Assembly: GCA_018889975.1 (NCBI GenBank)
Contig: CP076546.1
Location: 868,001 to 932,000, forward strand
Source of the DNA: Bacillus sp. NP157
GTDB taxonomy: Bacteria > Pseudomonadota > Gammaproteobacteria > Xanthomonadales > Rhodanobacteraceae
Direction of reading: 5' to 3'
Length of the DNA stretch: 64,000 nucleotides
Shown: piece by piece, positions 128-63,483 of the stretch
How positions within the stretch are numbered: the stretch's first letter is position 1
Layout: each line of letters opens with the position of its first letter
Notes under the pieces: model-generated
The model's input: only the letters and a program-made list of their open reading frames with translations
Told to the model about the DNA's origin: nothing
The model's database searches: none
Made by a program: the position numbers and the translations under genes

Positions 128-266
128 AGCCCTCGGTGCCTACCCTCGCTGCTCAGACAGGTCCTCCGCGCTCGATAAGGTTGGCCGCAGCCGCGGCCCA
201 TGTATTTGATTGCCCTACGGGCGCTCGCTTGTGCGGAACTCGCCTCGAGGGTAGGCACCGAGGGCT
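128..266 (+). repeat. Type A composite repeat, copy A1 (139 bp)
   Basis: Terminal inverted repeats at 128-148 and 246-266 are perfect complements over 21 bp. Inside are a hairpin at 183-198 (GGCCGC-AGCC-GCGGCC) and a second at 212-222 (GCCC-TAC-GGGC). The left end continues into a CTGCTCAGACAG tract and the right end is preceded by GAACTCGCCT, both shared by all seven copies, so the element has an orientation. A conserved GGCGCTCGG segment precedes it near 103, and a REP follows 69 bp beyond the right end. Confidence 0.85.
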
Positions 267-334
267 CTCCTCATCCGTGTCGCGAACTGGGTAGGACAGC
301 CGCGCCACCGGCATCCCCGACGCAACGGGGCTCT

Positions 335-357
335 TGTAGGAGCGCGCCTGCGCGCGA
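335..357 (+). repeat. REP palindrome, copy 2
   Basis: Same 23-bp REP as at 68-90. It lies 69 bp right of type A copy A1 in the same orientation, the standard arrangement for the composite repeats in this window. Confidence 0.85.
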
Positions 358-510
358 AAAGCCAACGAAGCGGTTTAGCGGAAGGATCTGTAACCGACTC
401 GTCCGAACGCCCTCTACTTACATCGAAGCGCACTGTCCCCTGCCAGCCCATGGCGGCCACTGCCAAAGACCTCTTAAGATGACTGGCTCCCCCTCGACAA
501 GGAACGATGA

Positions 511-1212
511 GTGGTGAATGACCTGATCGATGCGCTTCTTGCGTATCCGTGGATCGCGCTGGATCCGCCACCGACTCCGGCCGAGCGTTCGTTGCTGGAA
601 AGGCGCGTCCCCGTTCCTTTGCCTGCCGATGTCGACGCGTTGCTTGCCGTGGCGAGGGGGTTTTCGTCGCCGTCGCTGGGGCGGATCGACGTTGCTGGCG
701 CTTCGCACGATTTCGAGTTCCTTGATGTCTTTCCGCATGGCGTGCCTGTCGCCGCCTGTGATGGGAATTTCTGGGTCGTTGACGTGCGCGATGACGGTAG
801 CTGGGGGCAGGTATTTTTTGTTTGCCATGACCCCGCGGTTGTCGTGGTGCAGTGTCTTTCGCTGCGCGATTTCCTGTTGCGCTTGCTGGATGGCGATGCG
901 CTGGGCGACGAGGCCCTGGCACTGGCCATGGCCGTGTGGGACCGCGATCCGGTGTCGTTTTCGGGAACCGATGCGCTTGCTTCGGGCGATGTCGAACTTG
1001 CGGCATTCGCCGGGTCGCTCGATGAGTCGTTCGACATCGTGGATTTGCGTGCGGCTGGCGTGGGCGATGGATTTGCCTGGGGTCGGGCTGGGCCGACGAC
1101 CTCCTGCAGGCGTCATGCGTCGAACATGCTGTTCGGCGTGGAGCGGCCCCGTGCGCGTACCGGTTGGCTCAGTCGGCTGCGCGGAAGGTTTCGCCTCAGG
1201 GACTCGGCATGA
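511..1212 (+). CDS. SUKH (SMI1/KNR4)-family-like protein
   Basis: A 233-residue soluble protein that looks like the SMI1/KNR4 (SUKH) superfamily: an N-terminal helix with hydrophobic-proline pattern, a segment around residues 55-75 with GRIDVAGASHDFEFLDVF, and a later block FFVCHDPAVVVVQCLSLRDF typical of the fold's final strand and helix. Many bacterial SUKH proteins are immunity proteins of polymorphic toxins; that role here is inference, since no toxin gene is visible. The start is GTG at 511 because the only nearby ATG (508) hits a stop after four codons, and AAGGA at 499-503 sits 7 bases upstream. The next gene overlaps its stop by 4 bases, so the two are cotranslated. Confidence 0.6.
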   Translation: MVNDLIDALLAYPWIALDPPPTPAERSLLERRVPVPLPADVDALLAVARGFSSPSLGRIDVAGASHDFEFLDVFPHGVPVAACDGNFWVVDVRDDGSWGQVFFVCHDPAVVVVQCLSLRDFLLRLLDGDALGDEALALAMAVWDRDPVSFSGTDALASGDVELAAFAGSLDESFDIVDLRAAGVGDGFAWGRAGPTTSCRRHASNMLFGVERPRARTGWLSRLRGRFRLRDSA

Positions 1213-1727
1213 GCGGTCGTCGGATCGCTTTCGGCTTGTATGGCGTGGTGAGTGCGCTGGTTTGTGCCTATTTCATTTACGTCTGGAAGCCGCTCTGGAT
1301 CCTGTTCGGCGGCATGGCGGCGTACTTCGTGTTTCGTGCGTTTCGACCCAGTCCAGCGCAGGGGCGTCGGGTGGTAGAGGCGGGAGAGCCTGCGGTAGTG
1401 GCGTTCGGGCGGCTGGGCATGTACGCGGTCGATGGCGACCGGGAGCAAGCGCTCGGCATGTACATTCGTCTTGGTGGCCGAGCCGTGTTCATTGATATCG
1501 CGCAGGACGGCTTGTTGGATGGGCGGATCGCGTATGCGCATCGCTTGTATGCGGCGACCGATGTGCTGGAAGCGGGGCTCGGCGCATTCGTGCAAGCGAA
1601 CCGCGAGTTCGCAGGCCGGCGGGTGGGGACAATCGGTTTGCATTCGCGCAAGGATGCGGAGCAGGGCGAAGTGTTCTGGGATCCGGATGGGTATACGTTG
1701 CTGAAGGGTACGACCTTCGTCAGCTAG
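1209..1727 (+). CDS. Small inner-membrane protein, unknown function
   Basis: A 172-residue protein with two closely spaced N-terminal membrane segments (about residues 6-22 and 27-41, rich in F, Y, W and G) followed by a soluble domain of about 130 residues. I do not recognise the family. It starts at an ATGA overlap with the SUKH-like gene, so the pair is probably one transcriptional and translational unit. A longer reading frame begins at 1164, but that would overlap the upstream gene by 49 bases and places 15 polar residues before the membrane segment; the overlap start is preferred. No terminator is visible before the REP pair that follows. Confidence 0.6.
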   Translation: MSGRRIAFGLYGVVSALVCAYFIYVWKPLWILFGGMAAYFVFRAFRPSPAQGRRVVEAGEPAVVAFGRLGMYAVDGDREQALGMYIRLGGRAVFIDIAQDGLLDGRIAYAHRLYAATDVLEAGLGAFVQANREFAGRRVGTIGLHSRKDAEQGEVFWDPDGYTLLKGTTFVS

Positions 1728-1743
1728 CTTTACCGATGTTGTT

Positions 1744-1766
1744 TGTAGGAGCGCGCCTGCGCGCGA
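1744..1766 (+). repeat. REP palindrome, copy 3
   Basis: Forward REP just after the stop of the membrane-protein gene. With the inverted copy at 1876-1898 it forms a head-to-head pair between convergent genes. Confidence 0.8.
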
Positions 1767-1875
1767 AATGGCGGAGCCTGTATTTTCGATTTGTGTGGAT
1801 GTCCTCTGTTTGGAACGAGGGCATATCTTTGTTTTTTAGTTCAAAGCCTCATTCGCCCGATGCGATGTTGAGGGT

Positions 1876-1898
1876 TCGCGCACAGGTGCGCTCCTACA
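1876..1898 (-). repeat. REP palindrome, copy 4 (inverted, diverged)
   Basis: Reverse REP with changes in the stem (TGCGC...GTGCGC rather than the usual GCGCG arms) that keep it palindromic. It partners copy 3. Confidence 0.7.
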
Positions 1899-1926
1899 CG
1901 GGAACGAACACGGGTGCTGTTGCGGG

Positions 1927-2454
1927 TTAGGGGGCGTAGGTGAGGCGGACGATGCCTTCGCAGATGTCTTCGCTGCCGAGGAATCGGAGTGGGGGTACGG
2001 GGCCGGCGAAGTAGGGTTTGCCGCTGCCTAGCACGACGGGGTGTAGGTACATGCGGTAGGTGTCGATGAGGCCGCTGGTGGCTAGGCTTTGCGCGAGGAC
2101 GGTGCCGCCGAGTTCGAGTTCGCCGGTGAGGCCGGCTTTGAGTTGGCGCAGGGTGGCTTCGATATCGTCGCGCAGCAGGGTGGCGTTGGGGCCGACCGAC
2201 GTGAGCGTTCGCGATACGACCCATTTCGGTTTGCTGCGCCAGGCCTCGGCATAGGCGCGTTCGGGCTCGCCCCAGTCGGGCTGGTCGTCGTCCCAGTAGC
2301 GCATGATCTCGTAGAGGGTCCGGCCGTAGACCATGCCCGCGGCGCAGCGTACTTCGTCGATGAAATGCTGGAAGAGCGCGGGTGGCGGGGCGAAGCGGTC
2401 GTGGTCGACGTAGCCGTCGAGGGACTGGTTCAGGGCGTAGACGAGGCTGGCCAT
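1927..2454 (-). CDS. Dihydrofolate reductase-family protein (RibD C-terminal type)
   Basis: A 175-residue protein of the DHFR/RibD C-terminal fold: SLDGY near residue 11 (the family's S-x-DG-x signature), GRTLYE near 43-49 for nucleotide binding, WVVSRTL around 76, and the ELELGGTVLAQSL block that corresponds to the NADPH-binding GG motif. Such stand-alone proteins are NADPH-dependent reductases of unproven substrate, not the housekeeping FolA or the bifunctional RibD. It lies 74 bp downstream of the HupE-like gene on the same strand and may be the last gene of that operon. Confidence 0.75.
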   Translation of the reverse strand: MASLVYALNQSLDGYVDHDRFAPPPALFQHFIDEVRCAAGMVYGRTLYEIMRYWDDDQPDWGEPERAYAEAWRSKPKWVVSRTLTSVGPNATLLRDDIEATLRQLKAGLTGELELGGTVLAQSLATSGLIDTYRMYLHPVVLGSGKPYFAGPVPPLRFLGSEDICEGIVRLTYAP

Positions 2455-2528
2455 GGCGGGTGTCCGCTGCGGGGGCAGGCACCCATCCTATCCCTGGTGG
2501 CGGCGGTCGCGCTGCATCGCCACCGCCA

Positions 2529-3701
2529 TCAGCTCGGTAGCCATGCCGAGAACCACGGGATGGCGACATCGAACGCGCGTTCAACGAACCATCCCGCGGC
2601 GATGGCGACGATCAGCCACGAGCCCCAGCGCACGACGCCGACCTGGTAGAAGCGTGTGCGGCGCAGCGCGAACGCGAAGGGCAGGAAGGCGAGCACGATG
2701 GCTTCCTGGCCGACCTCGACGCCGACGCTGAAGCCACCGAGCGAGGCGGCCATGGCGCCGGCGGGTAGCTGCAGGCCGGTGAGCGCGCTGGCGAAGCCGA
2801 GGCCGTGGATGAGGCCGAACGCGAAGGCGATGAGCCACACGCGGCGATGCACCAGTGGGAACACGTTGTTGAGCGCGGCGACGAGCACGGAGAGCGCGAT
2901 GCCCGATTCGACCAGTCGGCTCGGCACGTGCACGATGCCGAGGACGGCCAGCGACAGCATGATGGAGTGCGAGATGCTGAAGGCCGTGACGATCTTGATG
3001 ACATCCAGGCAGGCCGACCAGAAACGCGTGACCGGCACGCGGTGGCGGCCTGTCGTGACGCTGGTGGCCAGCACCGCCGGGAACAGCAGCGAAAGCAGGA
3101 ACAGGATGTGGTCGATGCCCGTCCAGATGTGCCAGATGCCGTCGACGAGGAAGCTTTTGAACTCGCCCCAGCGGTCGGGCTCGCGCAGTTCGAGGCTGGC
3201 TTCCGGCTGGGTGGGGCCGAGGGCGGCGCCGGCCGTCCGGTCGCCGGCGTGGATCGTCACAATGCCGCGGTGGTAGGGGTCGATGTCGTACATCAGCGTG
3301 TAGACGACGGTGAGCTTGCTGGGGATGTTCTTGTCGCAGGTGGCGTCGAAGAGGATCACGGCGTAGCTGCCGTCGGTGTGTTCGTCGATGGCCTGGCCAG
3401 TGGCGGTGAGCTCGCAGGTCAGTCCGTCGCCTTTCACGACGAGCCGGGGCAATGCGTAGGCCTCGATGGCCTGCCGGTGGGCTTTGACTTCGCCCCACGT
3501 GATCGCGCCGTCGTGGTTGCTGTCGATGCCGATGGCGTAATCGAGGTCACGCAGGGCGATATCCCACTGGCCATGCATGCGATGATCGTCGGTCGCATCC
3601 GTGCGCAGCGTGAGATACGCGTCGCTTTCCTTGTGCGCGAGGACAGGCGATGCGACGAGCATGCCGAGCCAGCCTACGATGACGAGGACCCAGCGCTTCA
3701 T
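2529..3701 (-). CDS. HupE/UreJ-family membrane protein with N-terminal exported domain
   Basis: A 390-residue protein: a cleavable signal peptide (residues 1-22, ending VLA-HK), a periplasmic domain of about 170 residues, then six to seven membrane segments from about residue 190 (WHIWTGIDHILFLLSLLFP) to the C-terminus. The membrane part belongs to the HupE/UreJ_2 group, whose members are linked to metal uptake; the substrate here is unknown. The periplasmic part has an EF-hand-like loop, DSNHDGAITW, near residue 60, a plausible calcium site. The histidine- and aspartate-containing segments WTGIDH and FGLIHGLGFA are typical metal-contact candidates. Its start overlaps the end of the upstream TPR gene by 4 bases. 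Confidence 0.75.
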   Translation of the reverse strand: MKRWVLVIVGWLGMLVASPVLAHKESDAYLTLRTDATDDHRMHGQWDIALRDLDYAIGIDSNHDGAITWGEVKAHRQAIEAYALPRLVVKGDGLTCELTATGQAIDEHTDGSYAVILFDATCDKNIPSKLTVVYTLMYDIDPYHRGIVTIHAGDRTAGAALGPTQPEASLELREPDRWGEFKSFLVDGIWHIWTGIDHILFLLSLLFPAVLATSVTTGRHRVPVTRFWSACLDVIKIVTAFSISHSIMLSLAVLGIVHVPSRLVESGIALSVLVAALNNVFPLVHRRVWLIAFAFGLIHGLGFASALTGLQLPAGAMAASLGGFSVGVEVGQEAIVLAFLPFAFALRRTRFYQVGVVRWGSWLIVAIAAGWFVERAFDVAIPWFSAWLPS

Positions 3702-4927
3702 GGCTGCACGCGGGGCAGTAGCGCATCGACGGCGGGGTCGCGCATCCCGCTGGCCTTGACGAAGGCCAGCACGGGAGCGGCCGCGCCTGGCTTGCCGGCG
3801 GCGATCGCGGCTTCGAGGTAGATCCGTGCATCCTTTGGTGCGCGCTGCGTTGTCCAGTTCAACGCGGCTAGGCGGAGTGCCTCGTTGGCATCGTGGTGGA
3901 TGTGCAGCACGAAGGCGGCTTGTTCGCGCAGGAACAGGTGGTCGCCGCGTTGTTCCATCGCGGCAAAGCGGGCATCCATCGCCTTGATGTCAGCGTCCGC
4001 ATGGGCATCGCCGAGCGCGACCTCGGCGGCGACGCGGATGAGGAACGAGGTGTCCGACTGCGTCTCCGCCGCGACCAGCGCGAGGGCGTCGGCGGGGCGT
4101 CCCGTGTCGAGCAGGAACTCGCCGTAGTCTGCGAGCAGGAAATTGTCGCCGGGCGTCCAGCGCAATGCTTCGCGGAAATGCGCGTCGGCGAGATCGGCCC
4201 GGCCGGTGCGTATCGCGGTGTCGGCCATCAGCCCCTCGATCCACGCGCGGATATCGGCGGGTGCCTTCGGGCCGGGGTCTTCGATGAGCCCGAGCAGGGC
4301 GTAGGCCTGGGTGGCGTGGCCATCGAGCGAGCGCAGCGATGACGTGCAGGCCATGCCCATGAAACCGCCACCGGCGTTGGTCAGCTGTACGCAGGCACGG
4401 TTCGCCGTGGGGTAATCGCCTTGCACCATCGCGACGCTGGCCAGCGTGAGCCATGCCTGTGCGCTGTCGGGATCGCGGCGGAGGATGGCCTCCAGTTCGC
4501 TGCGCGATGCATCGAACGCGTGCCGGCTCTGCAGGATCGTGGCGTGGGCCAGGGCGACGGGTATCGGTGGCGATGCCGTTGCCATGAACGGGCTGATCAC
4601 CGCCATGGCGCGACCGAGGTAGCGTGCATCGCCGGTCGAGCGACCGTAGTTGATATAGGCCTCGGCGAGCGCGACGGCACGCGCGGGGTCCGTGGGATGC
4701 GCGGCGGCGTCGGTGCGTAGTACGTCGAACTGGCGCACCCGTGGATCGGTGTGCGGTGGTACGTGCTGCAGGACAACGTCGTCGCGGTCGGGGATGTAGG
4801 GCGTGCTGCGTTGCGCGGCGACCGGGCCGCAGGCGAACGACACGATGAAGAGGCACGACAGGACCCACCATGCCGCGGGGCCTGCCGTGCGTGGGCTAAT
4901 CGGGCCGGTGGTGGGCATGTTTACCAT
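3698..4927 (-). CDS. Exported TPR-repeat protein
   Basis: About 409 residues with an N-terminal hydrophobic segment (AAWWVLSCLFIVSFACGPVAA) that reads as a signal peptide, then alanine-rich helical repeats typical of tetratricopeptide repeats (for example the blocks around SELEAILRRDPDSAQAWLTLASV and AHFREALRWTPGDNFLLADY). TPR proteins scaffold complexes; no catalytic motif is visible. The start is set at ATG 4927; a TTG at 4945 and an ATG at 4918 are in the same frame, and no strong ribosome binding site decides between them. It lies 21 bp downstream of the DUF4331 gene and overlaps the HupE-like gene, forming a three-gene operon whose members recur together in other bacteria. Confidence 0.65.
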   Translation of the reverse strand: MVNMPTTGPISPRTAGPAAWWVLSCLFIVSFACGPVAAQRSTPYIPDRDDVVLQHVPPHTDPRVRQFDVLRTDAAAHPTDPARAVALAEAYINYGRSTGDARYLGRAMAVISPFMATASPPIPVALAHATILQSRHAFDASRSELEAILRRDPDSAQAWLTLASVAMVQGDYPTANRACVQLTNAGGGFMGMACTSSLRSLDGHATQAYALLGLIEDPGPKAPADIRAWIEGLMADTAIRTGRADLADAHFREALRWTPGDNFLLADYGEFLLDTGRPADALALVAAETQSDTSFLIRVAAEVALGDAHADADIKAMDARFAAMEQRGDHLFLREQAAFVLHIHHDANEALRLAALNWTTQRAPKDARIYLEAAIAAGKPGAAAPVLAFVKASGMRDPAVDALLPRVQP

Positions 4928-4948
4928 CCGGCCTGGGCGCCCCAAGAC

Positions 4949-6442
4949 TTACTGTGCTGCCACGGCGGGGTTCACCGAGCCGGGGACTGGTGTGTTGAGG
5001 TACGGGAAGTGGTCCAGGTAGGTATCCGCAGCCGACTCGCTTCCGGTCGCGGGTGAACTGGTCGCCGTCGCGCCTGCCGCGCGTGCGCCGTCAGTGAAGG
5101 GTGCGCCGTTGTTGGGGTCCGCGGTCTGGTCGCCACAGGTGCCGATCGCGGTGCTGCACAACGCACCTTCTTCGGCACGCAGTGCGATGTCGACCACGTC
5201 GTCGTACGGACGCCGGCCGTTCGGGAAGCCGGCCAGGTCGTTGCCGAGCACGCCCAGGTCGTTCTGTGCGGTTGGCGGCGTGGCTGCGATCGAGGTGTTG
5301 AGGCGCAGCTCCTCGGCGGGCACCACGTTGGCAGGCTGGTTGAGGCCGGCGACACCGGTGAGGAAGACGCTGACCAGATCGTTGCGTGGCGTGTGTGGCA
5401 CGTTGACGCCGAACAGCGCGTTGAGCAGGACCGGCACGGTCGGCTTGGTCACGTAGCTGAGGAATTGTTTGTCGGCGGAAGGCTGGCTGCCGTTGAAGCG
5501 GTCCTTGTCCTTCAGGCCGATGACCAGTTCGTTCACGAGCGGCGAGCCCAGGCGCGAGACCTGGACGAAGTCGGCGAAGCTGTAGGGCACGTCGGCGTTG
5601 TTCAGCACGCGGTAGCGCGGCTGGCTGGCGGTGGTCCAGCCGCCCACGATGGGCTGCCTTGCGGTCGCGCCGAGACAGGATGCCGGCACTTCGAGGGCGA
5701 GCGTGGTGACGTTCTTGCGCGTGAGCGCGTTGGGCGTGCCGTCGCGTGGGCCGAGCGGATTGAGGTTGACCAGGTCGAAGATGGCGCCGAGGTCGGCGAC
5801 GAAACCATCCTTGCGCTGGCCGGCGAAGACACGGCCGGTGGCGGGGCAATTGGGGATCCTGACCTCGTAGACGTAGTGGCTGGCGTAATCCTCGTAGTTA
5901 GCGATGGATTTGTTGCCGATGTTGTCGACAGGCTTGGTGAAGACGTTGCCGCCCTTGACGTTGCTGAGCGGTTGTCCGCGCCAGACCGGGCTGTCGCCCT
6001 TCATCACTTCCACGGAATAGGTTTCGAGGCGGTTGAGGTTGCTCTGGTCGGCGGCGGTCACCGGCCCGATGTTGAGCAGCGGCTGTGACTGGTTGACGCC
6101 ACCGGCGGGCACGGTGAGGTTCTTGTCGTGGTTGTTAAAGCGGAAGCGGAAGGTGAGGTCGGGCTTGCCCCGGCCGCTGCTGTCGATGTGGAAATCGTAG
6201 ACGGCGTTTTCGTCGAGGAAGTGGAAGTTGGGGCCGCTGTAGGCGTCCTGCAGGGGATCGTAGTTGGCGATCAGCGTCACGTAGCCGGCCCGGTTGGCCT
6301 CGTAGCTCATGAACATGTAGAAATCGCTGGCGTCGACCTGGGGCTGGGTCGCGATGAAGGGTGCTTCGCGGTGGCTGGACGCCGTGGCGAGTGCGGGCGC
6401 GAGCGCCGCCAGCACGGCAAGGCAGGTCAGGGTGATCTTCAC
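4949..6442 (-). CDS. DUF4331 exported protein
   Basis: A 497-residue secreted protein. Residues 1-21 are a signal peptide ending LATA-SSHREAP; the SSHREAP start of the mature chain is the hallmark of DUF4331. Further family features are DASDFYMF, YVTLIANYDPL and a long region rich in G, N and D. Four cysteines, two of them in CSTAIGTCGD near residue 430, could form disulfides. The function of the family is unknown. It is the first gene of an operon with an exported TPR protein and a HupE-like membrane protein, suggesting a joint periplasmic or envelope task. It has a long upstream region (see 6443-6790). Confidence 0.85.
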   Translation of the reverse strand: MKITLTCLAVLAALAPALATASSHREAPFIATQPQVDASDFYMFMSYEANRAGYVTLIANYDPLQDAYSGPNFHFLDENAVYDFHIDSSGRGKPDLTFRFRFNNHDKNLTVPAGGVNQSQPLLNIGPVTAADQSNLNRLETYSVEVMKGDSPVWRGQPLSNVKGGNVFTKPVDNIGNKSIANYEDYASHYVYEVRIPNCPATGRVFAGQRKDGFVADLGAIFDLVNLNPLGPRDGTPNALTRKNVTTLALEVPASCLGATARQPIVGGWTTASQPRYRVLNNADVPYSFADFVQVSRLGSPLVNELVIGLKDKDRFNGSQPSADKQFLSYVTKPTVPVLLNALFGVNVPHTPRNDLVSVFLTGVAGLNQPANVVPAEELRLNTSIAATPPTAQNDLGVLGNDLAGFPNGRRPYDDVVDIALRAEEGALCSTAIGTCGDQTADPNNGAPFTDGARAAGATATSSPATGSESAADTYLDHFPYLNTPVPGSVNPAVAAQ

Positions 6443-26213: not shown

Positions 26214-27443
26214 ATGAATCCCGCCATCGGCCTCGCCTGGAACCCTGCCGTCGGCATCCCGATGCTCTTCGTCGGCATCGTCGTGCTCGTGCTGCTCTGG
26301 CTGTTTGGCCAGCCGCGCAAGGAGCAGGGCCGGCGCAAGCCGATGCCCGAACAGCCCGAGCGCGCGCGCGAACGCCGCGAACCCTCGTTCGGTGGCGATG
26401 AGCGCCAGGGCGACGACAACCTGTCGTTCAGCGCCCGCGACGACGCCTTCGACGCGCGCGACTACGACAGCCGCGAGCCGCTGGCCCGCGACGACGACGC
26501 CAACGACCCGCTGTTCCGTCCGTCGCCGAAGCAGGGCGAGCTGGACGTCGACCTGCGCGCCGAACTCGAACGCCTCGGCGCCTCGCTCAGCGACCAGCGC
26601 AACCCGGCCGCCGATCCGCGCACGCCGATCACCGACCCACGCAGCTCCTCGGCTGCCGACATGGATCCGTACGAGCCGGCCCCGCGCGCTGGCCAGCGCA
26701 CCGAACCGCGGATCGACTTCGACCTGCCGTTCGACCTCGACGAACCGGCCGGCGGCGCCCGCGCCCCAGCCCAGCCGGCCGGCGGCCCCCGCGCACCGGC
26801 TTCGGCCCAACCGACGGGCGGCGCCCGCGCACCGGATCCGACCCAGTCGACCGGCCACGCACCCACGCCGCCGCCCGTGCAGCCGCCGGTGACCCAGGCC
26901 GCCGCACCGGCCCCGGTCCCGATGCCGCCCAAGCCGACGCCGGCGCCGGTGAAGACCCCGCCGCGCTCGGACCTCGGCCGCCGGCCGCCCAGCGCCCCGG
27001 TCGAACGCATCGTCAGCCTGTATGTCGTCTCGCGCGAAGGCCAGCGCTTCCAGGGCTCCGACCTGGTGGTCGCCGCCGAGAAGGCCGGCCTGGAATTCGG
27101 CGACATGGGCATCTACCACCGGCTGGTCGATGGCCACCCGGAAAAGGGCCCGATCTTCAGCGTGGCGAACCTGGTGAAGCCGGGTAACTTCGACATGGCG
27201 CGCATCGCGACCCTGCAGACGCCGGGCCTGTCGTTCTTCATGGCCCTGCCGGGCCCGATCGCTGCGCTGGATGCCTGGGATGCGATGCTGCCGACCGCGC
27301 AGCGCCTGGCGGAGCTGCTTGATGGCCTGGTGCTGGACGAGGAGCGCAATGCGCTCGGTCGCCAGCGCATCGCGCATATCCGCGATGAGCTCCGCGGCTG
27401 GGACCGCGGCCACGAAGGCGAAGAAATCAAATTCGGGCAGTAA
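26214..27443 (+). CDS. zipA: Cell division protein ZipA
   Basis: A 409-residue inner-membrane protein that tethers FtsZ to the membrane. N-terminal membrane anchor at about 15-32 (GIPMLFVGIVVLVLLWLF), a basic stretch, then a charged and proline/alanine-rich linker (about 35-265) with near-repeats of AGGARAPAQP type around 180-215, and the C-terminal FtsZ-binding domain (about 265-400, from VERIVSLYVVSREG to the C-terminus) with GLEFGDMGIYHR. Long linkers are normal for ZipA. In Pseudomonas, zipA is followed by the DNA ligase gene; here the ligase is 27 kb away and a repeat cluster follows zipA. Confidence 0.9.
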   Translation: MNPAIGLAWNPAVGIPMLFVGIVVLVLLWLFGQPRKEQGRRKPMPEQPERARERREPSFGGDERQGDDNLSFSARDDAFDARDYDSREPLARDDDANDPLFRPSPKQGELDVDLRAELERLGASLSDQRNPAADPRTPITDPRSSSAADMDPYEPAPRAGQRTEPRIDFDLPFDLDEPAGGARAPAQPAGGPRAPASAQPTGGARAPDPTQSTGHAPTPPPVQPPVTQAAAPAPVPMPPKPTPAPVKTPPRSDLGRRPPSAPVERIVSLYVVSREGQRFQGSDLVVAAEKAGLEFGDMGIYHRLVDGHPEKGPIFSVANLVKPGNFDMARIATLQTPGLSFFMALPGPIAALDAWDAMLPTAQRLAELLDGLVLDEERNALGRQRIAHIRDELRGWDRGHEGEEIKFGQ

Positions 27444-27497
27444 CACGACGGCCGTCGGGCCGGCCTCTGCGCGGCGCTCGGGCGTGGTTGCGGGAAG

Positions 27498-27736
27498 AGC
27501 CCTCGGCGCCTACCCTCGCTGCTCAGACAGCGTTCTGGCGTGCGATAGGGAGGGGCTGCTCCGCAGCCCATCTTCTTATTGGCCTGCGGCCGCGCACCGG
27601 GTGCCGGGCGGAGGTTCTTGATTCGGCATCCTGCCTCAACAAGAACGGCCGGCCATCGTGGCCGGCCCCCTGCGGGCTTCTTCCGCCCGGCCCCCTCGCC
27701 GCCACGAACTCGCCTCGAGGGTAGGCGCCGAGGGCT
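27498..27736 (+). repeat. Type B composite repeat, copy B1 (239 bp)
   Basis: The same 21-bp terminal inverted repeats and inner ends as type A (27498-27518 and 27716-27736). Hairpins: GGGCTGC-TCC-GCAGCCC (27553-27569) and GGCC-TGC-GGCC (27581-27591), in the positions of the two type A hairpins. The extra 100 bp is a branched arm enclosed by GCCGGGCGGA (27604-27613) and TCCGCCCGGC (27682-27691), with inner stems GTTCTTG/CAAGAAC (27614-27620 with 27640-27646) and GGCCGGCCA/TGGCCGGCC (27647-27667). A REP follows 55 bp beyond the right end. Confidence 0.85.
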
Positions 27737-27791
27737 CTTCCTCCACGTTCCCGCAAGCTGGTCTGGACGGCCGAGGCACCGCGGCAGCTCT

Positions 27792-27814
27792 TGTAGGAGC
27801 GCGCCTGCGCGCGA
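27792..27814 (+). repeat. REP palindrome, copy 9
   Basis: Forward REP 55 bp right of composite repeat B1, in the standard arrangement. Confidence 0.85.
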
Positions 27815-28014
27815 TTCAACGATACAGCGGCATATCAACGATACGGCAGCGTAGAACCACACGAGAAATGCGCCTGCGTTCGCATAGCCAACGACGTGAT
27901 GACGTTGGCGCCTGTCGCTCCGACTCGTACGAACGTACTCGACGTACATCGAATGAATATTCCTACATCGAATGGATATTTCGATGTACTCGTCGCCGTC
28001 GTCGCACACCCCAA

Positions 28015-28037
28015 TCGCGCGCAGGCGCGCTCCTACA
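28015..28037 (-). repeat. REP palindrome, copy 10 (inverted)
   Basis: Inverted REP 56 bp beyond the right end of inverted composite repeat A2, again the standard arrangement read on the minus strand. Confidence 0.85.
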
Positions 28038-28093
28038 ACAGCTGGTGCGTGGTGGCGTGGCCGTCCAAACCGGATCGCGGGAAGGGTGAGGAG

Positions 28094-28232
28094 AGTCCTC
28101 GGTGCCTACCCTCGAGGCGAGTTCCGCACAAGCGAACGGCCGCAGGCCAATAAATACATGGGCCGCGGCTGCGGCCACCCTTATCGAGCGCGGAGGACCT
28201 GTCTGAGCAGCGAGGGTAGGCACCGAGGGCTC
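28094..28232 (-). repeat. Type A composite repeat, copy A2 (139 bp, inverted)
   Basis: Terminal repeats 28094-28114 and 28212-28232, with one substitution (GTCCTC for GCCCTC) at the left. On the minus strand the second hairpin is GGCC-TGC-GGCC (plus-strand 28138-28148), whereas copy A1 has GCCC-TAC-GGGC: both stem sides changed together. The conserved GGCGCTCGGGCG flank lies beyond 28232 on the minus strand. Confidence 0.85.
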
Positions 28233-49190: not shown

Positions 49191-49273
49191 GGCCGTTGCG
49201 CGGGATCCGACCTCCGCGCGGCGCTCGGGCGTGGTCGCGAACTCCCGCGGCGCTCGGGCGTGGTCGCAGGACC

Positions 49274-49412
49274 AGCCCTCGGCGCCCACCCTCGCTGCTC
49301 AGACAGGTCCTCCGCGCTCGATAAGGGTGGCCGCAGCCGCGGCCCATGTATTTGATTAGCCTTCGGCTGCTCGCTTGTGCGGAACTCGCCTCGAGGGTGG
49401 GCGCCGAGGGCT
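49274..49412 (+). repeat. Type A composite repeat, copy A3 (139 bp)
   Basis: Terminal repeats 49274-49294 and 49392-49412, here with C and G in place of T and A at two positions, changed on both ends so pairing is kept (GGCGCCCACC with GGTGGGCGCC). The second hairpin is AGCC-TTC-GGCT (49358-49368), a third stem version distinct from GCCC/GGGC and GGCC/GGCC in other copies. The left flank is tandemly duplicated upstream. Confidence 0.85.
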
Positions 49413-49480
49413 GTTCTTGCCGGCCGCGCGCGACATGCGGGAGAGCAGGCCTGCTGCCTCGCCCGACACTGCCATGTTGT

Positions 49481-49503
49481 TGTAGGAGCGCGCCTGCGCG
49501 CGA
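49481..49503 (+). repeat. REP palindrome, copy 12
   Basis: Forward REP 68 bp right of composite repeat A3. Confidence 0.85.
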
Positions 49504-49687
49504 TTGATGGTGCCAAATGGCGGCCAACGCCAAAGCCGAAAGCATCAGCCAAAGCCCAAGGCATCGTTCTCGACGTGAGTCGACGCTCATCGAGCGGGTC
49601 GGTTCAACAGCGTCCGCCTACACCGCGCCTTCGCCCATTACACGCAACCGCATTTCCATACGACCGCAACGCCGCCGTATCGTCGAT

Positions 49688-49710
49688 TCGCGCGCAAGCA
49701 CGCTCCTACA
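49688..49710 (-). repeat. REP palindrome, copy 13 (inverted, diverged)
   Basis: Inverted REP with two changes (CAAGCACG for CAGGCGCG). It lies 28 bp beyond the right end of inverted composite repeat B2, the shortest such spacing seen here. Confidence 0.75.
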
Positions 49711-49738
49711 CGCAAATCTCGCGGCAGACTGCAAGAAC

Positions 49739-49977
49739 AGCCCTCGGCGCCTACCCTCGAGGCGAGTTCGTGGCGGCGAGGGGGCCGGGCGGAAGAAGCC
49801 CGCAGGGGGCCGGCCACGACGGCCGGCCGTTTCTGCCGAGACAGGATGTCGAGTCAGAAACCTCCGCCCGGCACCCGGTGCGCGGCCATAGGCCAATAAG
49901 GAAACGGGCTGCGGAGCAGCCCCTCCCTGTCGCACGCCAGAACGCTGTCTGAGCAGCGAGGGTAGGCGCCGAGGGCT
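49739..49977 (-). repeat. Type B composite repeat, copy B2 (239 bp, inverted)
   Basis: Terminal repeats 49739-49759 and 49957-49977. On the minus strand the inner-arm stem reads GTTTCTG/CAGAAAC where B1 has GTTCTTG/CAAGAAC: two base pairs changed on both sides. The second hairpin is GGCC-TAT-GGCC (plus-strand 49884-49894). Same length as B1 and B3 despite these differences. Confidence 0.85.
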
Positions 49978-50017
49978 GGTCCTGCGACCAAGCCCGAGCG
50001 CCGCGCAGAGTCCGAGG

Positions 50018-53191: not shown

Positions 53192-53247
53192 GGCGATCGT
53201 TCCTGATCAAAGCCGCGCAGGAGTGCACGGTGTCCCGAGCGTACCCG

Positions 53248-58168
<4,921 letters not shown>

Positions 58169-58173
58169 GCCCC

Positions 58174-58557
58174 ATGCTGACGTCGATCCACCACGTCGCG
58201 ATCATCTGCTCGGACTACCCGCGTTCGCGCGCGTTCTACACCGAGGTGCTCGGCCTGCGCATCGTCCACGAGGTGTACCGCGAGGCACGCGACTCGTGGA
58301 AGCTCGACCTCGAGGTCCGCCCCGGCGTGCAGATCGAGCTGTTCTCGTTCCCCTCGCCACCGCCCCGCGTGTCGCGCCCGGAGGCACAGGGCCTGCGCCA
58401 TATCGCGTTCGCGGTCGACGACCTCGATGCCGCCGTCGCACGGGTAAGCGGGCACGGCGTCTCCTGCGAACCGATCCGCGTCGACGAATACACCGGCAAG
58501 CGCTTCACCTTCTTCGCCGACCCCGACGACCAGCCGATCGAGCTCTACGAAACCTGA
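58174..58557 (+). CDS. VOC-family protein (YaeR/GloA2-like)
   Basis: A 127-residue vicinal-oxygen-chelate protein. It closely resembles E. coli YaeR: IHHVAIICSDYPRSRAFYTEVLGL, VYREARDSWKLDL, IELFSFPSPPPRVSRPEAQGLRHIAFAVDD and RFTFFADPDDQPIELYE. Metal-ligand positions His (HHVA), Glu (QIELF), His (GLRHIAF) and Glu (PIELYE) are present. Substrate unknown, despite the glyoxalase-like fold. Start ATG 58174, five bases after epmA, with no strong ribosome binding site. Confidence 0.88.
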   Translation: MLTSIHHVAIICSDYPRSRAFYTEVLGLRIVHEVYREARDSWKLDLEVRPGVQIELFSFPSPPPRVSRPEAQGLRHIAFAVDDLDAAVARVSGHGVSCEPIRVDEYTGKRFTFFADPDDQPIELYET

Positions 58558-58603
58558 CGCCACCACCCGGCCAACCGCGGCCACCTGACCAAACGCGGCC
58601 GGG

Positions 58604-59293
58604 TCAGAACTCCAGCTCTTGCGCGGCGCAGAGGTAGTCGACCATCGGCGCGAGGCGTTTGAAGTTGTCGACGATGAACGGCAGCAGCTCGGTGGAGCAC
58701 GCCATCGCTTCGTCGAAATCCCGCCCGGCGGCGTAGTTCTTCCGCTTCAGGTCTTCGATCAGCTCGTGGTTCGGATCGTAGCCACGCGGCGGCCGGACGA
58801 GGCTTTCGCCCCACCAGCCAAAGCGTTCCTGGAAGGCCTTCGTATGCGTCGCGCGCTTCCACGCATCCGGGTTATCCGACAGGAACTCGCGCAGCTTCTT
58901 CAGCACCGGCGGTTCCGGGTGCCACATGCCGCCGCCGACGAAGCAACCTTCGGGCTGGATGTGCAGGTAGAAGCCGGGCGCCTGGATCTCGTGGCGGCGC
59001 TCATGGAAGAAGCGCGAGCCCTGCCAGTTCTTGTACGGCTGCTTGTCGTTGGCGAAGCGCGTATCGCGGTGCAGCCGATAGAGCGAGCCACCGACCTTGC
59101 GCGGGTCGGCGCGGTAGTGCGGGCTGATCTTCGCCAGCGGCGCCTGCAAGTCGGTGATCAGCGCGATGAACGGATCGCGCACGTGGCGTTCGTAGTCGGC
59201 CTTGTGATCGTGGAACCACTCGCGGTTGTTGTTGCGCGCGAGCGACTTGAAGAACTTGAAGGTAGCGGGCGAAAAGTAGGCGGTGTGCGGCAT
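58604..59293 (-). CDS. DUF2461-family protein
   Basis: A 229-residue cytosolic protein of the DUF2461/TIGR02453 group: YFSPATFKFFKSLARNNNREWFHDHKADYER at the start, LYRLHRDTRFANDKQPYKNW in the middle (family core) and FYLHIQPEGCFVGGGMW. Function unknown. The start is ATG 59293 rather than 59323, because the latter would overlap the sbcB end and the family begins near the FSP motif. Eight bases downstream of sbcB on the same strand. Confidence 0.85.
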   Translation of the reverse strand: MPHTAYFSPATFKFFKSLARNNNREWFHDHKADYERHVRDPFIALITDLQAPLAKISPHYRADPRKVGGSLYRLHRDTRFANDKQPYKNWQGSRFFHERRHEIQAPGFYLHIQPEGCFVGGGMWHPEPPVLKKLREFLSDNPDAWKRATHTKAFQERFGWWGESLVRPPRGYDPNHELIEDLKRKNYAAGRDFDEAMACSTELLPFIVDNFKRLAPMVDYLCAAQELEF

Positions 59294-59301
59294 CGTTGGG
59301 C

Positions 59302-60726
59302 TCAGAGCAGGGTTTCGCCCCACGCATCCAGCTGGTCGAGCAGGGCGAGCGGGGCATCGGGCATGAGGCGCAGGGCGGCCAGTTCGGTGCGGTAATCGGC
59401 GAGGGTCAGGGTGGTCAGCGGGCCCTGCCGGGTCAGGCGGTCGACCCGGAACGCTTCCCAGCGCGCGTGTTCGTCCACGCTCAGGGTGTCCGGCCAGTTG
59501 CGCGCGCGATAGCGGAACAACAGCTCCGCGTAACGCGGGTCGCGGAAGGTGAAGCGGCCGCTACCCAGCTGTCCGGGTGGGGTCGCGCGGACCTCGGCCA
59601 GCAGGCGGCGGTCGGCGTCGGGCAGGAAGCCACCGTACAGGGCCAGCTCCGGGTCCTCGGCGGGCGGCATGCCGGCGGCCTGGCCGTAGATCCGGCGCAG
59701 CTTCTCGGCCAGCCCCGGCGCGTCGCGCAGCGCGGCCAGGTGTCTGTCGACGAGGGCCATGTCCAGGCCCAGCCGCGCGTGGTCGGCGCCCTTCAGCACG
59801 GACAGCGGGGCCAGCGCCGGCGCGTGGTTGGCGCGCACGGTGCGCAGCGCGATCCGCTCCACGCCCTCGGGCAGGTCGGCGCGCGAGGTGAAGACACGGT
59901 CGGCCACGTCCTCGTCGGCCAGGCTCAGCAGGTCGGTCGGGTCGGCGGTGAGGTCGTACACGATGATCTCGCCCTGCCGGGTCGGATGCGCCGACAACGG
60001 CACGATCACGGTGAGGCACTGCCGGCTGGCTGGGTAACGCGACGAGACGTGCACCACCGGCGTCATCGCCGCCACGTCGAGCAGTTCGAACACGCGCTGC
60101 TTGCGGCGCAGGGCGAAATACCAGTCCCACAGCTTCGGCTGGTGGGTGCGGATCAGCCGGGCCAGCCCGATCAGCGCCTCCACGTCGGACAACGCGTCGT
60201 GCGCGCGGTCCTGCTTCAGGTGATTGGCCCTGGCCAGGTGCTCGAGCTTGAAGCTCGGCGTGCCGTCCTCGCGGGTCGGCCAGGCGATGCCCTCCGGGCG
60301 AAGGGCCTGGCACAGCCGGACCAGGTCGATCAGGTCCCAGCGCGAATTGCCGTTTTCCCACTCGCGGCCGTAGGGCTCGTAGAAATTGCGGTACAGCAGG
60401 TGCCGGGTGAACTCGTCGTCGAAGCGCAGCGAGTTGTAGCCGACCCCGCAGGTGCCCGGCAGGCCGAGCTGCTCGTGCACCACCGCGGCAAATTCTGCCT
60501 CGGACAGGCCTTCACGTTCGGTCAGCTGCGGGGCGATCCCGGTGATCAGGCAGGCGGCCGGCTGCGGGGGCATGTCCCGCGGCGGCTTGCAGTAGACCAT
60601 CACCGGCTCGCCGACGATCTCCAGGTTGGCATCGGTGCGGATGCCTGCGAACTGGCTGGGGCGGTCCCTGCGCGGGTCGGCCCCGAAGGTTTCGTAGTCG
60701 TGCCAGAAAAAGGTCGGTTCGGCCAT
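59302..60726 (-). CDS. sbcB: Exodeoxyribonuclease I
   Basis: A 474-residue 3'-5' single-strand DNA exonuclease. DEDDh exonuclease domain (about 1-190): [13 protein letters not shown] (first acidic pair), [11 protein letters not shown], and [16 protein letters not shown] (His and Asp). Then the SH3-like and C-terminal helical domains, with [18 protein letters not shown]. Length matches E. coli SbcB (475). Divergent from orn, itself a DEDD nuclease, with 62 bp between the starts. Confidence 0.95.
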
Positions 60727-60788
60727 CTGGCCATGATCGCATGCAGGGGGAGGGCGAGGTAGACTGCCCGGTACTCAAAGGAATCCCC

Positions 60789-61355
60789 ATGACGCGAGCG
60801 CACGACGATAACCTCATCTGGATCGATCTCGAGATGACCGGGCTGGACACGGACAACGACTCCATCCTGGAGATCGCCACGATCGTGACGGACAAGGATC
60901 TGAACGTGCTCGCCGAGGGTCCGGTCTTCGCCATCAGCCACGCCGACGCCCGCCTGCAACAGATGGACGCCTGGAACCGCAACCAACATGGCCGCTCCGG
61001 CCTCTGGCAGCGCGTGGTGGAATCGGACGACAGCGTTGAGCTCGCCGAGCAGTCCACCATCGACTTCCTCGCGCACTGGGTGCACCCGGGCAAGTCGCCG
61101 ATGTGCGGTAACTCGATCTGCCAGGACCGTCGCTTCCTGCATCGCGAGATGCCGAAGCTGGAACGCTTCTTCCATTACCGCAACCTCGACGTGTCCACGC
61201 TGAAGGAACTCTCGCGCCGCTGGTCGCCGGATATCGCGCGCGGTTTCTCGAAGGACTCGGCGCACACCGCGCTGTCCGACATCCGCGATTCGATCGACGA
61301 GCTGCGTTACTACCGTCGCTTCATGGGCCCGATGGCCGGCACGATCCCGGGCTGA
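60789..61355 (+). CDS. orn: Oligoribonuclease
   Basis: A 188-residue 3'-5' exonuclease that degrades RNA dinucleotides, including pGpG from cyclic di-GMP turnover. DEDD motifs: [38 protein letters not shown] and [18 protein letters not shown]. The start is ATG 60789 with AAGGA about seven bases upstream; an earlier in-frame ATG at 60741 lies in the sbcB promoter region. folP follows 4 bases downstream. Confidence 0.96.
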
Positions 61356-61359
61356 GCCG

Positions 61360-62265
61360 ATGAGCTTCGATCCCTTCGCCATCTCGCTGGATTGCAACGG
61401 CCGCGCCCTGGTCCTAGACCGCCCGCGCGTGGCTGGCATCGTCAACGTCACCCCGGATTCGTTCTCCGACGGCGGCCAGCACGCGTCGCTGGAAGCGGCC
61501 TATGCGCATGCGATGCGGCTGGCGGAGGAGGGCGCGGACATGCTCGACGTCGGCGGCGAATCGACCCGCCCCGGCGCGGACGATGTGTCGGCGGAGCAGG
61601 AGATCCGCCGCGTGGTGCCGTTGATCGAGCGTCTTGCGGCGGCGACCACGCTGCCGATCTCGGTGGATACCTCGAAGCCGGAAGTGATGCGTGCGGCCGT
61701 GGCCGCGGGCGCCGGCATGATCAACGATGTGTTCGCGCTGCGCCGCGACGGTGCGCTGGACGCGGCGGCGGAGTTGCGCGTGCCGGTCTGCCTGATGCAT
61801 ATGCAGGGCGAGCCGCGTGTCATGCAGGACGATCCGAGCTATGACGACGTGGTGGGCGAGGTGCATCGGTTCCTGACCGATCGCCTGTTTGCCTGTGAGT
61901 TGTCCGGCATCGATCGGCGCAAGGTGTTGGTCGACCCGGGTTTCGGCTTCGGCAAGAACCTGGAGCACAACCTGGCGTTGCTGCGTGCGACGGCGCGCTT
62001 CGCGGAGCTTGGCGCGGGTGTTTACATCGGCCTGTCGCGGAAGAGCATGATCGGCCAGCTGACCGGTCGCACGGAGCCGGCGGCCCGCGGTGCGGGTTCG
62101 GCGGCGGCGGCGTTGATCGCGGTGCAGCGTGGCGCGGTGATCGTGCGTGTGCACGACGTGGCGATGACCGTGGACACTCTGGCGGTCTGGCAGGCCGTGA
62201 AGTCCGGCGACTCGGCCCCCCGCATCGACAAGCCCGCCACCCCCCGCTGGCCCGACGACGAATAG
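61360..62265 (+). CDS. folP: Dihydropteroate synthase
   Basis: A 301-residue folate-pathway enzyme joining 6-hydroxymethyl-7,8-dihydropterin pyrophosphate and p-aminobenzoate; the sulfonamide target. GIVNVTPDSFSDGGQ at about 28-42 and DVGGESTRPGAD at about 62-73 bind the pterin substrate; VCLMHMQGEPRVMQ, DPGFGFGKNLEHNL and GLSRKSMIG follow in the standard order. About 20 residues of C-terminal tail. Normally followed by glmM, as in E. coli; here 1.3 kb of repeats separates the two. Confidence 0.96.
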   Translation: MSFDPFAISLDCNGRALVLDRPRVAGIVNVTPDSFSDGGQHASLEAAYAHAMRLAEEGADMLDVGGESTRPGADDVSAEQEIRRVVPLIERLAAATTLPISVDTSKPEVMRAAVAAGAGMINDVFALRRDGALDAAAELRVPVCLMHMQGEPRVMQDDPSYDDVVGEVHRFLTDRLFACELSGIDRRKVLVDPGFGFGKNLEHNLALLRATARFAELGAGVYIGLSRKSMIGQLTGRTEPAARGAGSAAAALIAVQRGAVIVRVHDVAMTVDTLAVWQAVKSGDSAPRIDKPATPRWPDDE

Positions 62266-62273
62266 CCCGGCCC

Positions 62274-62296
62274 TGTAGGAGCGCGCCTGCGCGCGA
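62274..62296 (+). repeat. REP palindrome, copy 15
   Basis: Forward REP immediately after folP, left of composite repeat A4, in the same place as copy 1 relative to A1. Confidence 0.85.
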
Positions 62297-62333
62297 TGGC
62301 CGTCCGCGCGGCGCTCGGGCTCGGTCGCAGGAC

Positions 62334-62471
62334 AGCCCTCGGTGCCTACCCTCGCTGCTCAGACAGGTCCTCCGCGCTCGATAAGGATGGCCGCAGCCGC
62401 GGCCCATGTATTTATTGCCCTACGGGCGCTCGCTTGTGCGGAACTCGCCTCGAGGGTAGGCACCGAGGGCT
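62334..62471 (+). repeat. Type A composite repeat, copy A4 (138 bp)
   Basis: Terminal repeats 62334-62354 and 62451-62471. Second hairpin GCCC-TAC-GGGC (62417-62427) as in A1. The surrounding 310 bp, including both REPs and spacers, is a near-copy of the block at 68-377, so the composite has been duplicated as a whole. Confidence 0.85.
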
Positions 62472-62540
62472 CTCTTCATCCGTGTCGTGAGCTGGGTGGG
62501 ACAGCAGTGGCAACGGCATCCCCCACGCAGCTTCAGCTCG

Positions 62541-62563
62541 TGTAGGAGCGCGCCTGCGCGCGA
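62541..62563 (+). repeat. REP palindrome, copy 16
   Basis: Forward REP 69 bp right of composite repeat A4; followed by AAAGCCGACGAAGCGG as at copies 2 and 5. Confidence 0.85.
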
Positions 62564-62657
62564 AAAGCCGACGAAGCGGCGTAGTCGGGATACTTCCACC
62601 ATCGCGCCCGGCAGCCCGGCAGCCCGGCAGCCCTCAGCACACATCGACCCAGTTTGC

Positions 62658-62765
62658 TCACACAACCCGTGACTTGCGGATGGCCGCGGTAGGCAGCACG
62701 CGATGCACACGCACGTCAGGCGCGTGCCACGTGATGATCGCGAGCTCCGAATAGAGGATCGGCAC
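62658..62765 (-). pseudogene. Truncated toxin-like remnant downstream of the antitoxin
   Basis: A 35-codon frame from GTG 62765 to TGA 62658, starting three bases after the antitoxin-like gene. M-P-I-L-Y-S-E-L-A-I resembles the first strand of RelE/ParE toxins, but the frame then diverges and ends far short of the usual 90-100 residues. Best read as the remains of a toxin gene. Similarity is weak. Confidence 0.3.
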
Positions 62766-62767
62766 GG

Positions 62768-62917
62768 TCAGGCCTTCCTGGCGTCTGCTTCAAGCTCAGC
62801 CCAGGTGTCGTCATGGTCTTTCCAGTTGGAACGGCCCTCGGCTTCGTCCTGAAAGGCCTCTTGGACGCGCGACCGGAACCATTCGTCGTATTCCAACACG
62901 TTGATACCAAGTGACAT
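62768..62917 (-). CDS. Small StbD-like antitoxin candidate
   Basis: A 49-residue frame from ATG 62917 to TGA 62768. The stretch L-E-Y-D-E-W-F-R-S-R-V-Q-E-A-F-Q-D-E-A resembles the Y-x-x-WFR-x-x-V-x-x-A-L-D-D pattern of StbD/stability-determinant antitoxins that partner RelE/ParE toxins, and the acidic, Lys-Ala-terminated tail fits. It is shorter at the N-terminus than full StbD (about 70-80 residues), so it may itself be truncated. The toxin reading frame after it is broken. No strong ribosome binding site. Confidence 0.45.
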   Translation of the reverse strand: MSLGINVLEYDEWFRSRVQEAFQDEAEGRSNWKDHDDTWAELEADARKA

Positions 62918-63015
62918 TCATTGGGCCTCTGGGCAGTGCCAACCCATTGAGCCACGTAAGCAAATCCGGATCTGTCGGCCCCCACCAGTCATCCACGTCA
63001 TCCAACCCCCATCCG

Positions 63016-63038
63016 TGTAGGAGCGCGCCTGCGCGCGA
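63016..63038 (+). repeat. REP palindrome, copy 17
   Basis: Forward REP about 100 bp upstream of the antitoxin-like gene; it may have interrupted the gene that once lay there. Confidence 0.85.
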
Positions 63039-63153
63039 TTGGCGTGGCTGGGCATTGGCGATAACCAAGGCCCAGGGAATCGTTTCGATCTGATTTAGGC
63101 GCGATCATTCGGGGCGGTCACACAGGTTTCTGCATCGCCGCGTTGTCGGCAAA

Positions 63154-63176
63154 TCGCGCGCAGGCGCGCTCCTACG
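63154..63176 (-). repeat. REP palindrome, copy 18 (inverted)
   Basis: Inverted REP 68 bp beyond the right end of inverted composite repeat B3; last base of the foot changed to G. Confidence 0.8.
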
Positions 63177-63244
63177 GGAGCCGACGCGGCGTCGGGATGC
63201 CCGCGGCGCGGCCGTCCCAGCCAGCTCGCGACACGGTTAAAGAC

Positions 63245-63483
63245 AGCCCTCGGTGCCTACCCTCGAGGCGAGTTCGTGGCGGCGAGGGGGCCGGGCGGAA
63301 GAAGCCCGAAGGGGGCCGGCCACGATGGCCGGCCGTTCTTGTTGAGGCAGGATGCCGAATCAAGAACCTCCGCCCGGCACCCGGTGCGCGGCCGCAGGCC
63401 AATAAGTAGATGGGCTGCGGAGCAGCCCCTCCCTGTCGCACGCCAGAACGCTGTCTGAGCAGCGAGGGTAGGCACCGAGGGCT
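63245..63483 (-). repeat. Type B composite repeat, copy B3 (239 bp, inverted)
   Basis: Terminal repeats 63245-63265 and 63463-63483. Second hairpin GGCC-TGC-GGCC on the minus strand (plus 63390-63400). Terminal repeats use the T/A version (GGTGCCTACC/GGTAGGCACC), whereas B1 and B2 use GGCGCCTACC/GGTAGGCGCC: again both ends differ together. It is the element nearest to glmM. Confidence 0.85.

Follow-up and report, generated by a model that had tools for sequence, protein, structure and literature searches.

What kind of element keeps its fold through much sequence change? The question is raised by a 64,000-nucleotide stretch of the genome of Bacillus sp. NP157 (bases 868001-932000; the genome is a single contig of 4,875,246 bases; GC content of the stretch 67%), hereafter the window, in which an initial annotation had described seven copies of two repeats, A and B, with covarying hairpin stems. 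All seven were found at the coordinates it gave, save for one end: the copy placed at 28094-28232 starts there and stops 1 bp earlier, at 28231. What the annotation had missed is that A (139 bp) and B (239 bp) belong together as arms of a single composite. The arm family is real, covarying and mobile. Our preferred reading, held tentatively and put somewhat below an even chance, is that A and B form the arms of a mobile element that is non-coding and non-autonomous and is under selection to fold into DNA hairpins.

The two arms of one composite

Candidates in the whole genome numbered 116 for A and 149 for B; the best 40 of each were scored and 30 loci of each fetched. The arm census in these 60 loci and the window was ordered by how similar the arms are to the window copies, and it is not complete. 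The constant lengths claimed for the seven copies extend to the larger set, in which complete arms measure 138-139 bp (45 of 84 records) or 237-240 bp (36 records); the remaining records are one of 133 bp, cut by the edge of its locus, and two without a found partner end. Merging duplicates leaves 82 distinct arms. With at most two mismatches, the terminal-repeat pattern occurs 99 and 103 times on the two strands of this genome and its reversed control once on each, so the arms are not a product of chance. Genes were predicted from codon usage, with the window as training set, and none of 60 matched arms overlaps a predicted coding region. Half of the arms, 41 of 82, lie within the first 1.0 Mb of the 4.875-Mb contig, possibly in part a sampling effect of the similarity-ranked census.

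Arms lying within 2.5 kb of each other were treated as neighbouring pairs, and all 33 such pairs in this genome are convergent (25 AB, 5 AA and 3 BB). Their inner gap is 239-402 bp in 27 pairs and 740-1367 bp in 6, and 16 arms have no partner in the own-genome sequence examined. The same order recurs in related genomes, which carry our labels (G for genomes, L for loci): 34 of 35 adjacent pairs in relatives are convergent (L142 and L183 are one place, counted twice), the single divergent pair sitting between two units. Convergence was likewise found for 18 of 18 complete pairs among 19 stretches of G010 and, among the matches listed, for 15 of 16 pairs in six genus genomes. Paired arms also resemble each other. 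At stem position 10, the 24 AB pairs with complete arms read TT in 7, CC in 11, TC in 4, CT in 1 and otherwise in 1 (Fisher p = 0.009, the last pair excluded), an association expected if the members of a pair share their history. Genes within long composites (e.g., L010 and L021) look ordinary or were unrecognised, judged by eye.

Conserved flanks, which the initial annotation had also missed, adjoin the arms: an L block of about 28 bp and an R block of about 35 bp. The 139- and 239-bp pieces are therefore not the whole repeat unit. Arms in this genome are preceded by the L block, often beside a repetitive extragenic palindrome (REP). In some cases the 28-bp L block is in tandem before the arm, as at 49218-49270 of the window and at several other loci of this genome. 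The idea that the arms are transposon termini in this genome was rejected, because homology runs past the 21-bp repeats on both sides.

As far as the searched sequences go, the arm family appears confined to one genus. A-type DNA was found in 14 of 23 genus genomes (only in part in G004) and B-type DNA in 20 of 23; in the A-type search of other genomes, 2 of 78 gave stretches of about 30 bases, taken as chance. The covariance-model search of related genomes proposed by the initial annotation, run for A under strict filters on 147 family genomes, returned eight matches, all among the 12 genus members sampled, and none in 135 genomes of 25 other genera. Plasmid and phage records, searched with A only, gave no A-arm match. 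The annotators' impression that this is not a named family stands for the arms, which match nothing named in the searches made; a carrier could be named for the relatives' copies only. A search of genome contigs with one window protein yielded little beyond distant relatives (Dyella, Rhodanobacter and others).

Empty sites, also suggested by the initial annotation, were found at two window positions: all 21 related species examined for the one and all 22 examined for the other lack arms there. At composite 1, the gap that follows the gene with its end at 27443 contained arms in 0 of 21 relatives, G013 having been excluded for its weak gene match; a B-like arm lies past the next gene at the orthologous site in L229. 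The gene that follows composite 1 was found in 17 of the 21 relative loci, sometimes with another gene between. After the gene ending at 62265, at composite 3, arms occur in 0 of 22 relatives, and the next gene was located by tblastn at 48-291 bp in all 22; from its first residues we take the protein next after composite 3 to be GlmM. The absence of arms at orthologous sites argues that the family is mobile. Two further observations concern relatives. A 43-aa small open frame with the start MKTETFLLKTFF is alike in two species (L164:1187-1318 and L166:2033-2164) and lies both times between two convergent A arms, and L164:818-954 is a chimeric arm with A-type ends and an unrelated middle, as if two elements had recombined.

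ISL3-type units in relatives and REPs in this genome

In several relatives, the arms are carried by ISL3-type miniature inverted-repeat transposable elements (MITEs), often in poly-T tracts such as gene ends. This follows from 8-bp duplications together with matching ends beside ISL3 transposase pieces. Two 733-bp units at different sites in G001 differ at few positions and end abruptly at GGTTCATCGCGGAAGTCCGGGG and GGTTCTTCACGGATTACCGGGG; by eye, the poly-T/A tracts at both adjoin terminator-like hairpins. With at most one mismatch, the end pattern GGTTCWTCRCGSANNNCCGGGG is present in 15 of 23 genus genomes, and its control in none. Where both ISL3-type ends were found in the fetched loci with at most four mismatches, a unit was considered delimited. 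Of 20 such units, 11 have two arms (all convergent), 6 have one and 3 have none detected, and no transposase gene was seen inside the relatives' ISL3-type units. ISL3 insertion sequences make 8-bp duplications, and the two 8-bp flanks of a unit share on average 5.8 of their 8 letters in the 20 units; when partners were shuffled the figure was 3.3, and it reached at most 5.2 in 500 shuffles. The units in relatives thus have ISL3-type terminal repeats and 8-bp target duplications. A run of at least four T or A lies in 19 of the 20 left flanks.

Pieces of an ISL3 transposase lie at two contig ends of G013, each adjoining a matching end in a T or A tract. One piece, of 380 aa, scores 294.7 bits to NF033550 (cut-off 180); the other, of 105 aa, scores 80.9 bits, below that cut-off, and is above the Pfam cut-off for PF01610. 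In G020, a matching end has an ISL3 remnant 34 bp away, decayed and with one stop (28.8 bits). Other PF01610 matches, at about 21-27 bits and one per genome, are probably an unrelated protein, judged by eye. Beside terminal-inverted-repeat loci without arms, no transposase was recognised by eye in the open-reading-frame lists of 13 loci, for which no profile search was made. Units with ISL3-type ends and no detected arm span 195 to 913 bp (L324:1328-1522, L322 and L327), and the one at L327, from G020, contains the decayed transposase piece. An imperfect inverted repeat, TACCCT/AGGGTA, lies at L331:950-1040 between the left end and the transposase start of the G013 ISL3 element.

The composites of this genome are associated with REPs. 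Of the 60 arms, 55 have a GTAG REP (at most five mismatches) no more than 80 bp away on their inner side. The REPs in and beside the composites are GTAG-tagged palindromes of 20-40 bp in inverted pairs, as expected of REPs and of bacterial interspersed mosaic elements (BIMEs); the arms themselves are not REPs. At the E loci of several relatives, matching REPs are few or absent, and REPs therefore look optional.

The fold and its strand

Alignments of 88 distinct A arms (13 genomes) and 104 B arms (14 genomes) bear out the original claim that the stems vary with pairing kept. Parsimony on trees counts 34 double changes from one Watson-Crick pair to another in A and 114 in B, numbers that rest on parsimony and on fold-informed pairs, and Watson-Crick pairs fill 3228 of 3340 stem cells in A and 5853 of 6103 in B.

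Which strand folds can be addressed through the steps between paired states. Arms were oriented with CTGCTCAGACAG near the left end of the plus strand, and single-step intermediates were scored on stem pairs predicted on both strands plus a few extensions. A.C outnumbers G.T on the plus strand by 25 to 9 in A (p = 0.009) and by 41 to 10 in B (p = 1.5e-5), 66 to 19 together. As A.C on the plus strand is G.T on the minus strand, it is apparently the complement of the originally drawn strand that folds. Unpaired columns lack this skew (72:99 in A, p = 0.046 in the opposite direction; 134:143 in B). Folding energies also prefer the minus strand, in 80 of 88 A arms and 94 of 104 B arms when DNA parameters are used and in 73 and 93, respectively, with those for RNA.

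The loops point the same way. On the plus strand they read T(N)1-2C, hence G(N)1-2A on the minus strand, mostly closed by C-G, and most hairpin loops on the minus strand obey the rule C(GNA)G or C(GNNA)G, which is known from DNA hairpins extruded at physiological supercoiling. A hairpin 2 follows it in 83 of 84 arms (four arms lack the hairpin), B hairpin 1 in 104 of 104 and B hairpin 2 in 82 of 104. Only 3 of the 39 four-base hairpin-1 loops that obey the rule would be GNRA on the minus strand, which speaks against the usual RNA tetraloop. GNA minihairpins are reportedly extraordinarily stable, in the words of a 1997 title by Yoshizawa. On balance, we favour DNA hairpins over RNA as the best supported form. 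The same closing pair together with the loop G and A is described as needed for the promoter hairpins of phage N4 to extrude (PMC4496689). The initial annotation had proposed selection on a fold and not on primary sequence. Double changes, strand-biased intermediates and constant loop ends uphold the fold; the strand on which it was drawn appears to be the wrong one.

Table 1. Arms, flanking blocks and REPs in the window (positions within the window)
Feature	Position	Strand	Parts and remarks
A arm, 139 bp	128..266	+	single, partner not found
Surroundings of first A arm	69..357		REP 69-90 (+), L block 102-125 (+), R block 281-301 (+), REP 336-357 (+)
Composite 1	27471..28231		L block 27471-27494, B arm (+), R block 27752-27772, REP 27793-27814 (+), REP 28015-28036 (-), R block 28059-28079 (-), A arm (-)
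B arm, 239 bp	27498..27736	+	left arm of composite 1
A arm, 138 bp	28094..28231	-	right arm of composite 1
Composite 2	49218..50004		tandem L blocks 49218-49241 and 49247-49270, A arm (+), REP 49482-49503 (+), REP 49688-49709 (-), B arm (-), L block 49981-50004 (-)
A arm, 139 bp	49274..49412	+	left arm of composite 2
B arm, 239 bp	49739..49977	-	right arm of composite 2
Composite 3	62275..63509		REP 62275-62296 (+), L block 62308-62331, A arm (+), R block 62486-62506, REPs 62542-62563 (+), 63017-63038 (+) and 63154-63175 (-), R block 63210-63230 (-), B arm (-), L block 63486-63509 (-)
A arm, 138 bp	62334..62471	+	left arm of composite 3
B arm, 239 bp	63245..63483	-	right arm of composite 3

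Competing readings and known systems

In the preferred reading, an ISL3 transposase would have moved the relatives' units in trans. The copies of this genome would descend from ISL3-type units or from a shared arm module, and would have lost recognisable ISL3 ends and merged with REP arrays. Each arm may be selected as a cluster of DNA hairpins on the complement of the drawn strand, as intermediates, energies and the loop rule suggest, and could fold when supercoiled DNA extrudes it or when replication leaves it single-stranded. A more specific proposal, possible although we lean against it, is that the arms form a genus-specific class of transposon module selected to fold as DNA on one strand by the C(GNA)G/C(GNNA)G rule, which allows hairpins to extrude out of supercoiled duplex. 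Its two unlike modules in fixed convergent order would be a carrier-independent unit that has travelled with ISL3-type ends in some species and with REP arrays elsewhere.

Several results weigh against the DNA-hairpin element. In the whole of this genome the ISL3-type end pattern has no match with at most one mismatch, nor has it in G010, and with at most five mismatches no ISL3-type ends occur in the 60 own-genome loci and the window. The initial annotation had named an insertion-sequence end family with a coding parent as what would overturn it; such a family, ISL3, was found for the relatives' units and not for the copies here (0 ends). No target duplication was seen at 30 composites of this genome, whose true ends are uncertain (longest shared string, mean 4.57 against 4.55 when shuffled). 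The significant covariation that the annotation had called for is sparse: a home-made tree-based null over all column pairs left only two significant pairs in A, both in the terminal stem, and five in B, of which four are stem pairs and one joins two neighbouring loop columns. A hairpin 1 obeys the loop rule in just 41 of 87 arms, and 42 of the misses are loops of this genome that read AGCC. For B hairpin 4, where the locator often picked another register, the count is 29 of 104. By itself the loop rule cannot separate DNA from RNA. Lastly, 159 of 191 arms (66 of 87 A, 93 of 104 B) have a T-rich tail, with 6 or more T of 14, behind hairpin 1 on the plus strand, whereas 20 (14 and 6) have one on the minus strand. 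In this genome, 7 of 32 composites have six or more T or A in a row within 200 bp outside an arm, against 3 of 159 window tiles of 400 bp; this would fit an old poly-T target, the control being weak because the tiles are mostly coding.

The T-rich tails lead to a serious rival, coherent in that it joins poly-T targets with arm convergence, which we nevertheless judge unlikely: the arms as replacement terminators. Units would enter and split the T-tract of a host gene's terminator, and an arm read inwards would supply hairpin 1 and a T-rich tail that stop transcription; convergent arms would serve both neighbours and render insertions harmless, with selection acting on RNA of the strand originally drawn. 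The poly-T targets in relatives and the constant convergence are accounted for. Two composites hold five terminator-like matches, three and two per region against 0.6 and 0.7 in shuffles, and three of the five are hairpin 1 on the arm's plus strand; the other two, however, lie on the minus strand, which intermediates and energies also favour, and the long terminal stem and other hairpins would be superfluous for a terminator. A co-oriented gene precedes 42 of the 60 arms, as a terminator would have it, but not the other 18, and the idea that arms are placed only after co-oriented genes was rejected on these counts. Terminators and DNA hairpins could both hold, for different parts of the arm. 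Quite unlikely is a reading, compatible with folding as either DNA or RNA, in which the composites here are arrays like BIMEs or REP dimers (REPINs) moved by a REP-associated tyrosine transposase (RAYT) and not by ISL3. The REPs so close inside the arms and the lack of ISL3 ends suit it. So does the single Y1 transposase gene (RAYT) of this genome, flanked by the same REP, and in G010 the composites contain a REP with a different stem that equals the REP flanking the G010 RAYT gene. Yet RAYT is present in 22 of 23 genus genomes, including three in which the search found no B arm (G012, G014 and G020), none of the 22 RAYT loci inspected showed an arm, and matching REPs are few or missing at the E loci of several relatives.

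Pairing could also be restored without selection on the fold, by template switching in quasi-palindromes or by gene conversion between copies, an explanation we rate as highly unlikely. Many related copies per genome, stem letters common to the arms of one composite and the few pairs passing the all-pairs null are what such upkeep would leave; it does not account for loop ends that stay T..C around a variable middle, none having turned to G..A in A hairpin 2 or B hairpin 1, or for intermediates that are strand-biased in stems and not in unpaired columns. A divergent pair of small-RNA genes, transcribed outwards from the core so that each RNA is the minus strand of its arm, deserves very little credence. 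The minus-strand preference under RNA parameters and the biased intermediates would agree with it, but a scan of two composites turned up no sigma-70-like promoter, the GNRA count is low, and the Rfam search suggested by the initial annotation returned no family at gathering score over the window. That annotation had left the choice between a structured non-coding RNA and a non-autonomous mobile element; the results fit a mobile element whose fold matters and make the RNA less likely, given the lack of a sigma-70-like promoter in the two composites and of an Rfam match at gathering score. Two sub-threshold Rfam matches lie over arms, MIR1437 (29.3 bits, gathering 168) at 49254-49433 and TwoAYGGAY (28.4 bits, gathering 43) at 49803-49866 of the window, and are probably chance.

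The usual account of small palindromic repeats is that they are mobile and affect RNA weakly. In the present family, large arms retain their fold although the sequence has changed a great deal; one strand is measurably preferred, and the loops obey a rule known from DNA hairpins that extrude in vivo. The question of folded DNA or RNA thus becomes testable for such repeats by point changes in one arm. The family also suggests how a MITE module could merge with REP arrays and lose its ends, and the origin of an intergenic repeat may in this way become unrecognisable.

No description of these arms was found in the open-licence literature searched, and the nearest known systems each share part of their character. 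Enterobacterial repetitive intergenic consensus (ERIC) sequences, or intergenic repeat units (IRU), are likewise imperfect palindromes between genes, present in many copies and in both a short and a long form. Repeat units of 127 bp are mentioned for them in PMC2759123. Unlike ERIC/IRU, the two forms here make up one unit, as arms whose convergent order is fixed, and neither sequence nor Rfam connects them. BIMEs and REPINs compare in the inverted GTAG REP pairs inside the composite, the single RAYT with the same REP and the intergenic location, but the 139- and 239-bp arms differ from REPs, and several relatives have them without REPs that match. In Anabaena variabilis, GTAG-15 dimers are described as inserted within long palindromes (PMC3733652). 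With ISL3-family MITEs, the relatives' units share the ends of an ISL3 transposase locus, 8-bp duplications and the lack of an internal transposase; they differ in their large, paired, covarying and folding arms, and the composites of this genome differ further in having no such ends. The early promoter hairpins of phage N4, as described in PMC4496689, have strand-specific three-base loops with a 5' G and a 3' A closed by C-G, which most loops of the arms resemble; no promoter role is evident in the arms, and the likeness is one of possible mechanism and not of kinship.

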